Assembly (NCBI RefSeq): GCF_000152965.1 | Contig: NZ_CH902583.1 | Coordinates: 2,239,892-2,303,891, forward strand | DNA: 64,000 nt | Origin: Roseobacter sp. MED193 | GTDB lineage: Bacteria; Pseudomonadota; Alphaproteobacteria; Rhodobacterales; Rhodobacteraceae | Direction: 5' to 3' | In this document: positions 4,632-46,527 of the stretch, piece by piece | Layout: each line of letters opens with the position of its first letter | How positions within the stretch are numbered: position 1 is the stretch's first letter | Made by a program: the position numbers and the translations under genes | Notes under the pieces: model-generated | The model's input: only the letters and a program-made list of their open reading frames with translations | What the model was told of the DNA's origin: nothing | Database searches by the model: none

Positions 4632-4679
4632 ATCCACCACCACTAATTTTCACCCACTATTGGGATATCAGTTGGGGTG

Positions 4680-4694
4680 TTAAATGGCCCTTAA
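4680..4694. promoter_or_regulatory. Perfect CtrA-type box upstream of motB
   Basis: TTAA at 4680-4683 and TTAA at 4691-4694 are separated by exactly 7 bases (ATGGCCC), the full CtrA recognition pattern. Two further TTAA half-sites follow at 4698 and 4714, giving four within 38 bp. The box is centred about 56 bp upstream of the motB ATG. Flagellar genes are known CtrA targets in alphaproteobacteria; binding here is inferred. Confidence 0.6.
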
Positions 4695-4814
4695 CAGTTA
4701 AACTTGCCGGCAGTTAAGACATGTAAAGAGAGGGTTTCACCTGTGCCACGGCCAGTAACGGGCCAAAATCAGCTCTAGAATGGCCGAGCCGTGGTAAATA
4801 GAGGGTGAACATTT

Positions 4815-35658: not shown

Positions 35659-36729
35659 GTGAGCCAGATCGACCAGAATGACATTCGCGCCGCCGTTGGC
35701 TCTGGCCTGATAAGCGAGGCGCAAGCCGCCTCTCTACTGGCAATGTCCCACAGCCGACGTGGCGCGCGCGAGGACTTGGCACCTGGCGATGAACCCTTTG
35801 AGCTGTTCAAAGGCTTCAACGAGATTTTTATCGTCATTGGCATGCTCATTCTGGCCTCAGGCTGGGCCGCCGTCACCGCAGCCTATATCGCAGGATCCTT
35901 AGGTGGATATGTTGAAAAGACCATCGGCTCTTCGGCATTGGGGGCTGTTTTGCTCTGGATCTTTGCCGAGTATTTCATCCGCCGTCGCCGTATGATCGCC
36001 CCAGCCATTGCCCTGTCCCTGCTTTGGGCCGCCAACGCTGGTACGGGGATTACCGCGTTTTTTTCCGAACCTTTTATGGTGGCGCAGAACGATCTATCCA
36101 GCCTACCCCTGCCTATGGCACTGACCACGGCTGCGGTGGCGCTGTTTTGGTTCCGGTTTCGGGTACCATTTGCAATGGCGCTGATTGCGCTTGGGGTTTT
36201 TGCCCTCACCCTGATGATGGCCGCAGAACAGGCTGGCCGGCCAGATGGGATTAGCGATTTCTTCCTATTCTCCGCCTCTGGTCCCTTTGCCTGGGTAACG
36301 CTGGCTGTGGGGATTGCCGTCTTTGCGGTCGCCATGATGTTTGACCTCAGCGATCCGCATCGCGTCACCCGCCGCGCAGCCCAAGGGTTTTGGCTGCATG
36401 TTGTTGCAGCGCCAGCCTTGGTTAATACCATTGCTCTGAGCCTGCTGGACCAAGGCACAACTGGCGCGCAGCTGACGCTGGTTGCTGTCCTTTTTGCCTT
36501 TGCACTGGTGGCGATCATCATTGACCGCCGCTCCTTCCTGATTGCTGCCATCGGCTACAGTGTGACCCTGGCTGGCACCGTCTTTGATGGCGAGGGAGCC
36601 GCGATGACCATTCTTCTGCTTGGTTTCTTCCTGGTGATCCTTGGCGCCTTCTGGGCGCGGATCCGGGCGACCTTGCTCTCTCCTTTGGCTGGTGTGCTGC
36701 CGCTGCACCGCCTTCCTCCTTCTCACTGA
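35659..36729 (+). CDS. Multi-spanning integral membrane protein of unknown function
   Basis: Unrecognised 356-residue protein: a soluble N-terminal part (about 1-50, including [20 protein letters not shown]) and around ten hydrophobic segments (from [20 protein letters not shown] to [20 protein letters not shown]). It may be distantly related to DUF2157-type proteins. The start is a GTG one base after the hslV stop with GGAGAG upstream; it ends 13 bp before hslU. It is thus embedded in the hslVU operon and may be co-expressed in heat shock. Confidence 0.7.
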
Positions 36730-36742
36730 AACGAGACATCCC

Positions 36743-38056
36743 ATGACTGACCTGACACCCCGCGAAATCGTTTCTGAACTGGACCGCTTTATTATCGGAC
36801 AGGCCGAGGCAAAACGTGCCGTGGCCGTAGCGTTGCGCAACCGTTGGCGCCGCAAACAGCTCTCGGATGACCTGCGCGACGAGGTCTATCCCAAAAACAT
36901 CCTGATGATCGGACCCACCGGCGTCGGGAAAACCGAAATCTCCCGTCGCCTGGCAAAGCTGGCCCGTGCGCCCTTCATCAAGGTTGAAGCAACCAAATTC
37001 ACCGAAGTTGGTTATGTTGGCCGTGACGTTGAACAAATCATTCGCGATTTGGTGGATAGTGCCATCGTTCAAACCCGTGAATTCATGCGTGAAGACGTCA
37101 CAACCAAGGCCCAAAAGGCCGCAGAAGACAGGGTGATCGACGCGCTGGCTGGCGAAGATGCTCGCGAAATCACACGTGAAGTGTTCCGCAAAAAACTGAA
37201 ATCAGGTCAGCTGGATGACGCGCTGATCGAATTGGATGTCGCCGATAGCTCCAACCCCATGGGCAATATGTTTGATATTCCAGGTCAGCCTGGTGGCGGC
37301 AATATGGGGGTTCTCAATATCGGGAATCTCCTGGGCAAGGCCATGGGCGGGCGTACCGTGCGCAGAAAGATGACCGTTGCTGAAAGCTATGAAGTTTTGA
37401 TCAGTGATGAGGCCGACAAATTGCTGGATGATGAGGTGGTCACCCGCGCTGCTATTGAATCGGTAGAGCAAAGCGGCATCGTCTTTCTGGATGAAATCGA
37501 CAAGGTCTGCGCCCGGTCAGACGCCCGCGGGGGGGATGTCAGCCGTGAAGGCGTACAGAGGGATCTACTGCCCCTGATCGAAGGCACCACGGTCAGCACC
37601 AAACACGGCCCAATCAAGACAGATCATATCCTGTTCATCGCCTCCGGTGCCTTTCATGTTGCTAAACCCTCCGATCTCTTGCCTGAATTGCAGGGCCGTT
37701 TGCCAATCCGGGTCAATCTGCGCTCGCTGAGCGAGACCGACTTTGTCCGTATCCTAACGGAAACCGACAATGCGCTGACGCTACAATATACCGCCTTGAT
37801 GAAGACCGAAGAGGTTGAAGTGACCTTTACCGAAGATGGTATTGCCGCGCTCGCCAAGATTGCAGCAGAGGTAAACCATTCAGTGGAAAACATCGGCGCG
37901 CGTCGGCTTTATACTGTGATTGAACGGGTGTTTGAGGAACTCTCGTTCAACGCTCCCGATAGGGGCGGCGAGAAAGTCACTGTAAACGCCAGTTTTGTGG
38001 GCAAGCACCTGGGCGAGCTGGCAAGCAGAAGCGATCTGAGCCGCTACGTGCTTTAG
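36743..38056 (+). CDS. hslU: ATP-dependent protease ATPase subunit HslU
   Basis: HslU is the AAA+ unfoldase that feeds proteins to HslV. The 437-residue product starts [19 protein letters not shown], with Walker [18 protein letters not shown] near residue 55, the pore motif region [16 protein letters not shown] near 90, Walker [13 protein letters not shown] near 250, sensor [20 protein letters not shown] and the C-terminal SRYVL tail that docks into HslV. It follows the membrane gene of the same operon by 13 bp. Confidence 0.97.
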
Positions 38057-44233: not shown

Positions 44234-45063
44234 CGCAGCGCCGCTGCCCGTGTCGCAGTATCCACATCGGGCCGCTGGCCGAACCAACGTTCAAAGCCAG
44301 GCACCGCCTGATGCAACAACATGCCGAGCCCATCAACCACTGTGCAACCCATCTCCTCGGCGGTTTGCAGCAGATTGGTTTTGAGCGGGGAATAGATCAG
44401 ATCAGTAACAACCATATTTGGCTTTAGCCCATCCAAAGGGACCCGAAGGCGCGGCTTTCCAACCATACCAAGCGAAGTGGTGTTTACCACCAGGGCAGCA
44501 TCTTCAATGATGTTGCCAGCCAGAACCCAATCAACCACCTGAATACGCTTACCAAAATCGCTATGAAGCTGCTCCGCCCGTTCACGCGTGCGGTTGGTCA
44601 ACAGGATCTCCGGCACCCCGGCCTCGATCAAAGAGGCCACAACAGCGCGACAGGCACCACCCGCGCCAAGAACTGCTGCCGGGCCACTGGTCGGAACCCA
44701 ATCCGGAGCACCCTGCTGCAGGTTGGTGATAAAACCGTATCCATCCGTGTTATCCGCCAAGATACTGCCGTCACTGCGAAAGATAATTGTATTGGCCGCG
44801 CCCATCAATTTGGCCCGGTCCGTTACCTTGTCAGCGATCTTCATTACGGCTTCTTTGTGCGGGATCGTGACATTGACGCCGACAAACCCGGCCTTTGGCA
44901 GGGTCCGGATCACTGTTTCCAGGTCCTCTGGCTCCACATGCATCGGCACGTAATGCCCCGCAATGCCGTGGGTCTTGAGCCAATGTGTCTGCAACTGCGG
45001 CGATTTCGAATGCGCCACCGGACAGCCGATCACGCCGGCAAGAGGGATCTTTTTATCGCTCAT
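44230..45063 (-). CDS. aroE: Shikimate dehydrogenase (NADP+)
   Basis: AroE reduces 3-dehydroshikimate to shikimate in aromatic amino-acid synthesis. The 277-residue product has the substrate-binding GVIGCPVAHSKSPQLQ, the catalytic lysine region NVTIPHKEAVM near residue 65, NTDGYGF near 108, and the NADP-binding AAVLGAGGACRAVV near 130, followed by LTNRTRERAEQL. It overlaps maf upstream and coaE downstream by 4 bp each. Confidence 0.96.
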   Translation of the reverse strand: MSDKKIPLAGVIGCPVAHSKSPQLQTHWLKTHGIAGHYVPMHVEPEDLETVIRTLPKAGFVGVNVTIPHKEAVMKIADKVTDRAKLMGAANTIIFRSDGSILADNTDGYGFITNLQQGAPDWVPTSGPAAVLGAGGACRAVVASLIEAGVPEILLTNRTRERAEQLHSDFGKRIQVVDWVLAGNIIEDAALVVNTTSLGMVGKPRLRVPLDGLKPNMVVTDLIYSPLKTNLLQTAEEMGCTVVDGLGMLLHQAVPGFERWFGQRPDVDTATRAAALR

Positions 45064-45659
45064 TGATCAATTACACCCTGTAGTCCCAGATAGTTGAGCA
45101 GTTCCACCAGAGGTAGTCCCAGAACATTAAAGTAACTCCCTTCAATGTTAGAAAACAAGCGTACGCCTTCTTCTTCCAGCTTATAGGCCCCAACTGCGTG
45201 CTGAATACTGTGCCAGTTGCGTGACACATAAGAAGACAGGTAGCCATCCGAACACTCCCGCATACGCAAACGGACCTGGCCTACATGACGCCAGATGGGT
45301 TCCCCATCGCGGTAGATCACCGCAGCAGACAATAGCATATGTCGTTTTCCACGCATCGCGCTAAGCTGCGCCAGGGCTTCTTCTTCGCTTTTTGGCTTTG
45401 ACAGAAGCGCACCCTCAAAATCCAGCACCTGGTCACACCCCAAAACCAATGGTCCTGGATTCTTCATGCTGACTTTGCGCGCCTTTGCTTCGGCCAGTGC
45501 ATCGGCAATATCACGGGGATTGGCACCCTCGGCCAAGAGTGAAGCTTTGATCGCCTCCTCATCCACGCGCGCGATTTGCACCTCAAAAGGCACATCGGCC
45601 TGACGCAGCAGCTGCGCACGGATTTCAGAACCGGAGGCCAACAGGATGTGGGCAGACAT
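45060..45659 (-). CDS. maf: Maf-like nucleoside triphosphate pyrophosphatase
   Basis: Maf proteins hydrolyse non-canonical or modified nucleoside triphosphates. The 199-residue product has the N-terminal motif LLASGSEIRAQLLRQADVPF, VLGCDQVLDFEG near residue 72, and the late GAYKLEEEGVRLFSNIEGS. The start of the N-terminal motif (ASGSEIR) differs from the canonical SxSxRR, as in other alphaproteobacterial members. It is the first gene on the left side of the putative origin. Confidence 0.92.
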   Translation of the reverse strand: MSAHILLASGSEIRAQLLRQADVPFEVQIARVDEEAIKASLLAEGANPRDIADALAEAKARKVSMKNPGPLVLGCDQVLDFEGALLSKPKSEEEALAQLSAMRGKRHMLLSAAVIYRDGEPIWRHVGQVRLRMRECSDGYLSSYVSRNWHSIQHAVGAYKLEEEGVRLFSNIEGSYFNVLGLPLVELLNYLGLQGVIDQ

Positions 45660-46071
45660 GTGGAAAACCCCATGGAAAAGACGCGCAAGTTTATAGGATG
45701 GTTTGTATGGTTTTCCGCGCTTTTGGCAAGTGCACAGGAAAAGTGGAAATTCCAGGAAAGGATCCGCTGATTCCTCCGCCGGGGATTGGGATAACTCTCC
45801 AAACCGGGATATCTATGATCTCCCCGATTCCTCCAAAGGTTATCCCCAGAGTAATCTAGGTTAACAAAGTGTTAATTACCCTTATTTTCAAAGATGTTAA
45901 CCAAAGTGTCACCAATGTGGCAACTTTGGGGCAAGCTATTCATTCACACTGGGGATAAGCCGGTGAAAGACTGAATAATCCACCGAAACCCTTGTCCCTA
46001 CAAAAACATCATCCTTTAAATCTTTCTTTATTATTATAAGGGTGGGTCATCTAAGCCTAAGCGAGAGACCG
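45660..46071. other. Putative chromosomal replication origin (oriC)
   Basis: A 412-bp gene-free stretch at a divergence point, with maf-aroE-coaE-dnaQ reading left and hemJ-rho-mnmE-mnmG-rsmG-parAB reading right. It contains DnaA-box-like 9-mers: TTATCCCAA (45786-45794, minus), TTATCCCCA (45840-45848, plus), TTATCCCCA (45950-45958, minus) and TAATCCACC (45976-45984, plus). The A+T-rich segments are 45859-45902, bounded by the dyad GGTTAAC…GTTAACC, and 46014-46040. Two GATTC sites (45769 and 45826) fit the CcrM motif GANTC. Location next to parAB with parS sites is the rule in alphaproteobacteria. Function is inferred. Confidence 0.78.
45861..45875. promoter_or_regulatory. Perfect CtrA-type box inside the putative origin
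   Basis: TTAA (45861-45864), seven bases CAAAGTG, TTAA (45872-45875), in the A+T-rich core of the candidate origin and 12 bp from a DnaA-box-like TTATCCCCA. In Caulobacter, CtrA binds such sites in the origin and blocks initiation. Here this is pattern-based inference. Confidence 0.55.
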
Positions 46072-46527
46072 ATGGACCTGACAGACTGGATGTTCACCCT
46101 CTACCCATATGCCAAATCACTGCACATCATGGCAGTGCTCAGCTGGATGGCGGGTTTATTCTATCTCCCGCGGCTGTTCGTGTATCACGTGGAGCAGGCA
46201 GAGAAGGTTCCTGAAAGCCTGTCGATCTTTGTTACCATGGAAGACAAACTGCATCGTTTGATCATGCGCCCAGCTATGACGGTGACATGGGGTGCAGGGC
46301 TGTTCATGGTGATGACCCCTGGGATCGTCGATTGGAGCTCTGTGTGGCCCTGGAGCAAGGCTTTGGGGGTCTTGGGAATGAGCTGGTTCCACTATTGGCT
46401 GTTGATGCGTCAGCGGGACTTTGCGGCTGGGAAAAATCGTCTCACCGGTCGAAGGTATCGGATGATGAACGAAGTCCCCACGCTGCTGATGGTGGTGATT
46501 GTCGTTTCAGTGATCTTCAAGTTCTGA
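46072..46527 (+). CDS. hemJ: Protoporphyrinogen IX oxidase HemJ
   Basis: HemJ oxidises protoporphyrinogen IX to protoporphyrin IX in the inner membrane, the oxidase type used by most alphaproteobacteria. The 151-residue product has about four membrane segments and the conserved histidine region YAKSLHIMAVLSWMAGLFYL followed by PRLFVYHVE, and LMRPAMTVTWGAGLFM-type features (here IMRPAMTVTWGAGLF). The ATG at 46072 has GAGAG upstream and opens the family-conserved N-terminus. It is the first gene to the right of the putative origin. Confidence 0.9.
   Translation: MDLTDWMFTLYPYAKSLHIMAVLSWMAGLFYLPRLFVYHVEQAEKVPESLSIFVTMEDKLHRLIMRPAMTVTWGAGLFMVMTPGIVDWSSVWPWSKALGVLGMSWFHYWLLMRQRDFAAGKNRLTGRRYRMMNEVPTLLMVVIVVSVIFKF

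Follow-up and report, generated by a model that had tools for sequence, protein, structure and literature searches.

The 415-bp gap between maf and a hemJ-like gene in Roseobacter sp. MED193, which we predict to be the origin of chromosome replication, contains a CtrA-type box. Both TTAA halves of this box are under selection, and in the clade that carries it the box stands at a fixed distance from a DnaA box. We propose that CtrA binds this box within the chromosome origin and that bound CtrA~P would there tune DnaA assembly and the start of replication; on the sequence evidence gathered here, we consider this proposal about evenly poised between right and wrong. Positions below are those of the window, that is, the whole 64-kb stretch of DNA that was analyzed, which is part of a 4.12-Mb contig. 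Papers are cited by PMC number.

The predicted origin and its CtrA-type box

The gap (45660–46074, no strand assigned) separates two divergent genes, maf (45060–45659, minus strand; also used as a search query) and hemJ (46075–46527, plus strand; start codon at 46075 assumed); both gene names are presumptive. Cumulative GC skew across the window reaches its minimum in this gap. Sampled along the genome, GC skew switches from negative to positive between 2.18 and 2.33 Mb, a stretch that holds the box (2.286 Mb), and it switches back between 0.21 and 0.41 Mb. Downstream of hemJ follow what we take, from their sequences, to be rho, mnmE, mnmG, rsmG, parA and parB. We looked at the 30 genera whose HemJ matches rank best: maf and hemJ flank a gap of ~370–430 bp in every one (30/30), and the alignment of these gaps shows conserved DnaA-like boxes together with an A+T-rich block beside hemJ. 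Because of the skew minimum, the skew flip, the nearby parAB and the DnaA-like boxes in 30 genera, we predict that the maf/hemJ gap is the replication origin. No ATCCAC-like box was seen near hemJ in 17 of 80 added upstream pieces, and some of these pieces may therefore not be origins. Predictions of oriC in Rhodobacteraceae have been published (PMC6699656), as has related literature on the known background (PMC2877005). AT skew is most pronounced elsewhere in the window, at 36001–37000, where it reaches −0.23 across 1 kb.

Several further elements can be recognized within the gap. DnaA box TTATCCCCA occupies 45840–45848 on the plus strand, and an inverted DnaA box (minus strand; TGGGGATAA on the plus strand) lies at 45950–45958, on the far side of the central segment, with 9/9 columns invariant in the genus. 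Two further DnaA-like boxes are found at 45976–45984 (TAATCCACC, plus strand; ATAATCCAC-like in the 30-genus alignment) and at 45786–45794 (minus strand; TTGGGATAA on the plus strand). The sequence GATTCCTCC, which contains the CcrM-type site GANTC, occurs twice on the plus strand, at 45769–45777, with a GANTC that does not vary within the genus, and at 45826–45834, where four of the five GANTC columns are constant; these two copies are possibly methylation-sensitive sites. Adjoining hemJ is a block of 72% A+T (46001–46046, no strand assigned; CTACAAAAACATCATCCTTT..TTATTATTA) that hardly varies within the genus, can be recognized across the 30 genera and would be a candidate unwinding element.

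A sequence-only reading of this DNA had described a CtrA box in the A+T-rich core of a putative origin, next to a DnaA-like box and close to GANTC sites. Each of these elements is borne out: TTAACAAAGTGTTAA is present at 45861–45875, within a gap center (45861–45905) that is 76% A+T; 12 bp separate it from DnaA box TTATCCCCA; and GANTC-containing copies begin at 45769 and 45826. If base 45860 is included, the minus strand (45860–45875) reads TTAACACTTTGTTAAC, which agrees in 11 of 11 letters with the published Rhodobacterales CtrA motif TTAAC-N5-GTTAAC (PMC7232146). This is the sole perfect match within the window. The full motif occurs at seven distinct places in the 4.67-Mb genome, the reversed control at two forward and one reverse, and genome density predicts 0.0006 full motifs per 415-bp gap. 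The short form TTAA-N7-TTAA is found three times in the window against 0.15 expected from dinucleotide shuffling. Allowing one mismatch gives nine against 6.05 expected, with 11 of 100 shuffles reaching nine, and genome-wide the short form is no commoner than its reversed control (29 and 30 places); the rarity of the short form is for these reasons no argument. What sets the box above chance is its conservation, not the short motif alone.

Besides the full box, the origin contains a second, degenerate 11-bp direct repeat of the form GTTAAC-N5-TGTCAC (45896–45912, plus strand), and TTAA-N7-TTCA stands at the matching place in 8 of the 24 sister gaps looked at. The sequence GTTAACCAAAGTGTCACCAATGTGGC (45897–45922) is strongly conserved in the genus, and its tail past the second half-box is without explanation. 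Two observations concern full-length motifs and repeats elsewhere in the genome. A full TTAAC-N5-GTTAAC lies at 1500–1515 of locus L058 (G000:C1:1248330), ~50 bp before a glycosyltransferase/MshEN gene, and its 16-mer TTAACAGTGTGTTAAC is present in 7 of 12 genus genomes by sequence match only, gene context aside. An identical 16-mer, TTAACAAAAGGTTAAC, stands at three distant places (L047, L053 and L153), one of them before an HU-like gene.

Selection on the half-sites and rigid spacing to the DnaA box

We assign the strain to Pseudophaeobacter, after most of its nearest named relatives (some are labeled Phaeobacter sp. or Roseobacter sp.), and our genus sample consists of all 12 Pseudophaeobacter genomes offered by the search. 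TTAA-N7-TTAA is kept at the same origin position in all 12, the full 11-letter form in seven. In the genus alignment, all eight half-site columns are invariant as against one of the seven spacer columns, on a background of 50.5% invariant columns. Mapped on the flanking-gene tree, the halves show 0 changes in 8 columns and the spacer 20 in 7, where the gap mean is 1.24 per column. Four of 402 offsets (45831, 45861, 45896 and 45897) combine eight half-like columns that never change with a spacer in which four or more columns vary. The box is real, and both of its TTAA halves are under selection. A chance occurrence in an A+T-rich stretch would fit the composition of the gap center and the lack of genome-wide enrichment of the short motif; we rejected it on the conservation pattern, to which the spacing control and the clade distribution described below add, and regard it as very improbable.

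The genus alignment also bears on how the box is to be read. In the focal strain the two arms of the 15-mer are exact inverted copies of each other on either side of three bases, as would suit a dimeric protein binding TTAACA-N3-TGTTAA, and a Dnr/Fnr site, TTAAC-N4-GTCAA, shares one half with it (PMC7232146). Relatives do not keep this symmetry (TTAACAAAACCTTAA, TTAAAAAATCGTTAA), however, and the spacer is five rather than the four of the N4 inverted repeat. A palindromic Fnr/Dnr-type site, or another dimer site, is thus contradicted by the alignment; we rejected it and consider it extremely unlikely. For this lack of symmetry, the preferred reading of the box is a direct repeat whose period is 11 bp, as expected for a tandem of an OmpR-family protein.

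Beyond the genus, we looked at the 20 gaps that come next by HemJ rank (L067–L087 without L072, which is a genus member). These include Leisingera, Tritonibacter, Zongyanglinia, one of two Epibacterium and two Phaeobacter sp. records. T[TA]AA-N7-TTAA, a pattern chosen after the sister sequences had been viewed, occupies the matching position in 16 of the 20, with TAAA as the left half; spacers from 0 to 15 other than 7 are found in at most three of them. This rank-only set replaces an earlier sister set (18/24), which was biased because L092, L101 and L124 had been taken from outside the HemJ rank after box-like matches were seen. One record in the series, L067, is titled Nocardioides marinus, an actinobacterium, and carries a roseobacter origin region; it is mislabeled or contaminated.

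A hemJ-rho tree of 80 tips, rooted at its midpoint (support 0.98), places the box in 26 of 31 tips on one side and in 1 of 49 on the other; exact TTAA-N7-TTAA stands elsewhere in the gap in three more of those 49. With L087, which is absent from the tree and was placed by similarity, the clade comprises 32 gaps, 27 of which carry T[TA]AA-N7-TTAA. In all 27, the start of the box lies 21 bp after the start of the DnaA box, whereas the distances to two other conserved marks in the same clade gaps vary by up to 4 bp. The sequence-only reading had made conservation of the TTAA pair in related genomes a test of its claim, and the outcome is divided: the pair is kept throughout the genus, but, with the flanking genes in place, the box is missing from all but 1 of the 49 named gaps outside the clade and from 7 of 7 gaps of the genus of G097, which we call Phaeobacter-like because L278 resembles P. 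italicus L068 by eye. The box is therefore dispensable in that genus. A single gain, several losses and a switch between TAAA and TTAA would be the simplest history for these sequences.

Across the family, 199 genera were searched, 169 gave a HemJ match and 110 of these entered the counts. An order-wide ancestral origin site was rejected, as exact boxes are found in 8 of 110 genera (1.34 expected) and at scattered places. In a spacing control on the 109 other genera, spacer 7 occurs in seven, the next highest spacing in four and the other 20 spacings in 1.25 on average, an excess that may hint at further independent sites. Among 72 named gaps from outside the genus, spacer 7 does not stand out (four, against up to nine at other spacers), which speaks against a general rule.

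The center of the gap might alternatively be a site for IHF or another architectural protein, with the TTAA letters kept for that purpose. Using an assumed IHF consensus, in counts made after the alignment had been viewed, we find the IHF-like motif YAANNNNTTGWTW in the gap center of 20 of 49 gaps outside the clade, as against 0 of 32 inside it; anywhere in the gap, it occurs in 28 of 110 genera (5.1 expected). In 13 of the 32 clade gaps, TTAA and TT(G/A)TWT stand about two bases further apart than in the IHF-like form, and this arrangement might be a variant. An architectural site fails, however, to explain an invariant left half next to a free 7-bp spacer, and we regard it as quite unlikely. 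The same counts, with the box in 27/32 gaps and the IHF-like motif in 0/32 inside the clade but the box in 1/49 and the motif in 20/49 outside, suggest another, doubtful but conceivable reading in which CtrA took the seat of IHF in the origin center of this clade. The two would then use the same place and be mutually exclusive, and CtrA would belong to the initiation complex as a stereospecific component, placed two turns of the helix away from the DnaA box. Rather than being only a brake, it might then help initiation, as is hinted at by the D. shibae ctrA mutant (below).

CtrA, other candidate sites and competing regulators

CtrA itself is encoded in the genome, as a protein of 239 amino acids that is 74% identical to a typed Caulobacter query. 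Its gene sits far from the origin, toward ter, a distant location that has been described as usual in Rhodobacterales. The components of the CtrA phosphorelay and of the CcrM/GcrA system that we looked for, ChpT, GcrA and a RAMA-domain methylase, are encoded as well. The GcrA family control also matched in Sulfolobus, so the GcrA model is not perfectly specific; the RAMA control matched in Caulobacter only, and we presume the RAMA-domain methylase to be of the CcrM type.

A second TTAA-N7-TTAA in the window (4679–4695, plus strand) lies among flagellar genes, 36 bp upstream of the motB start codon. Six of 11 genus genomes have it in exact form (the contig of the twelfth ends too early) and the other five with one CTAA half; its spacer is variable. 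In the related P. inhibens, flagellar genes are silenced in CtrA-phosphorelay mutants (PMC12363192), and the motB box is probably a flagellar target, as expected of CtrA. Selected neighbors of the 29 genome-wide short sites, classified by Pfam, include motB, an HU-like gene, kinases, surface proteins and many genes without a family; most of the 29 sites may be there by chance.

The 11-bp direct repeat could be bound by an OmpR-family regulator other than CtrA, as about ten further full-length members are encoded in the genome. The sister left half, TAAA, departs from the CtrA consensus and falls outside even the looser TTWW rule (PMC1914354), which counts against the CtrA reading and for such a regulator. 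The focal box is nonetheless the full published CtrA motif, and the motB box has the same form, so that we consider another regulator unlikely. It is equally improbable, in our judgment, that CtrA binds the box for transcription of hemJ or maf, and not for replication. The gap is a divergent promoter region, and CtrA of Caulobacter also acts on a promoter within the origin. Promoter activation by CtrA is mentioned in PMC4468827. Yet the maf start is 201 bp and the assumed hemJ start 198 bp away from the box, whereas the motB box lies 36 bp from its start, and the conserved spacing is that to the DnaA box. The placement of the box between DnaA boxes, two turns from the first and ~200 bp from the starts, favors a role in the initiation complex over one at a promoter.

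A possible role in initiation and its precedents

We return to CtrA acting at the origin. Two CtrA~P molecules would sit in tandem on the two half-sites, on the same face of the helix, in the A+T-rich center between the inverted DnaA boxes at 45840–45848 and 45950–45958. The pair would stand two helical turns (21 bp) from TTATCCCCA, and bound CtrA could from there tune DnaA assembly and hence the decision to start replication. It may do so as a brake, with CtrA~P hindering DnaA assembly or unwinding, or as a helper; we slightly favor the brake. Caulobacter suggests a brake, the D. shibae ctrA mutant the opposite. Also to be set against our proposal are the single full site, the lack of genome-wide enrichment of the short motif, the absence of the box from one Phaeobacter-like genus, the distance of ctrA from the origin and the S. 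meliloti origin, which is not bound by CtrA (PMC4433202).

The gene neighborhood of the Caulobacter origin, Cori, is presumably similar to the focal one (maf, aroE, coaE and dnaQ), although the origins themselves are flanked by maf and hemJ here and by hemE and COG1806 in Cori. In both, CtrA-type sites (TTAA-N7-TTAA) lie near DnaA boxes in the origin, along with GANTC sites. Cori, with five CtrA sites and an IHF site (PMC1914354), differs from the focal gap with its one full and one degenerate box. In the focal clade, YAANNNNTTGWTW was seen in none of the 32 gap centers, 13 of which have the longer form that might be a variant. The statement in the sequence-only reading that the site mirrors the Caulobacter origin accordingly holds for a CtrA-type box beside a DnaA box, and not for the number of sites or, in the form counted, the central IHF-like motif. 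The Caulobacter origin is blocked by CtrA~P (PMC8116508; PMC4468827), yet removal of its CtrA sites disturbed replication only mildly under laboratory conditions (PMC4468827).

CtrA at origins is already known from Caulobacter and Hyphomonas, and possibly from Rickettsia. In Hyphomonas neptunium, an alphaproteobacterium whose placement in Rhodobacterales was disputed, CtrA binds next to the origin by ChIP-seq (PMC7200025); binding is demonstrated there but predicted at the focal site, and the lineage differs. The origins of Rickettsia prowazekii and Wolbachia have CtrA, DnaA and IHF motifs (PMC1914354), but these are hemE-neighbored origins of obligate intracellular bacteria. In Dinoroseobacter shibae, a roseobacter like the focal strain, deletions of ctrA, cckA and chpT alter the chromosome equivalents per cell, and without ctrA a smaller fraction of cells has more than two chromosome equivalents, an effect opposite in sign to that in Caulobacter (PMC4046655). 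CtrA site predictions exist for D. shibae (PMC6473078), and the available portions of these two papers name no origin CtrA site for it. According to PMC4468827, CtrA sites were not seen in other origins. Our own search, over titles, abstract openings and partial texts, with subscription literature mostly outside its reach, found no description of a CtrA site in a Rhodobacteraceae origin. The sequence-only reading had called direct origin control new or little described. Within the reach of that search this stands for a direct Rhodobacteraceae origin site, and as far as our searches reach there is no precedent for a clade-specific CtrA-type site with rigid DnaA spacing in roseobacters. The claim does not extend to CtrA and replication at large, since CtrA has been stated in print to influence replication in some Rhodobacterales (PMC8116508), and the H. 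neptunium ChIP-seq data are known as well.

If roseobacter origins do carry a CtrA-type box under selection, control of the origin by CtrA would have arisen anew in a group whose ctrA can be deleted (PMC8116508). The box would offer a direct route to explain the CtrA-dependent chromosome number in roseobacters, and it makes the distinction between a direct and an indirect CtrA effect testable. Its gain and loss between sister genera would provide a ready-made natural comparison. Through this box, CtrA may help decide the timing of chromosome copying in these bacteria.
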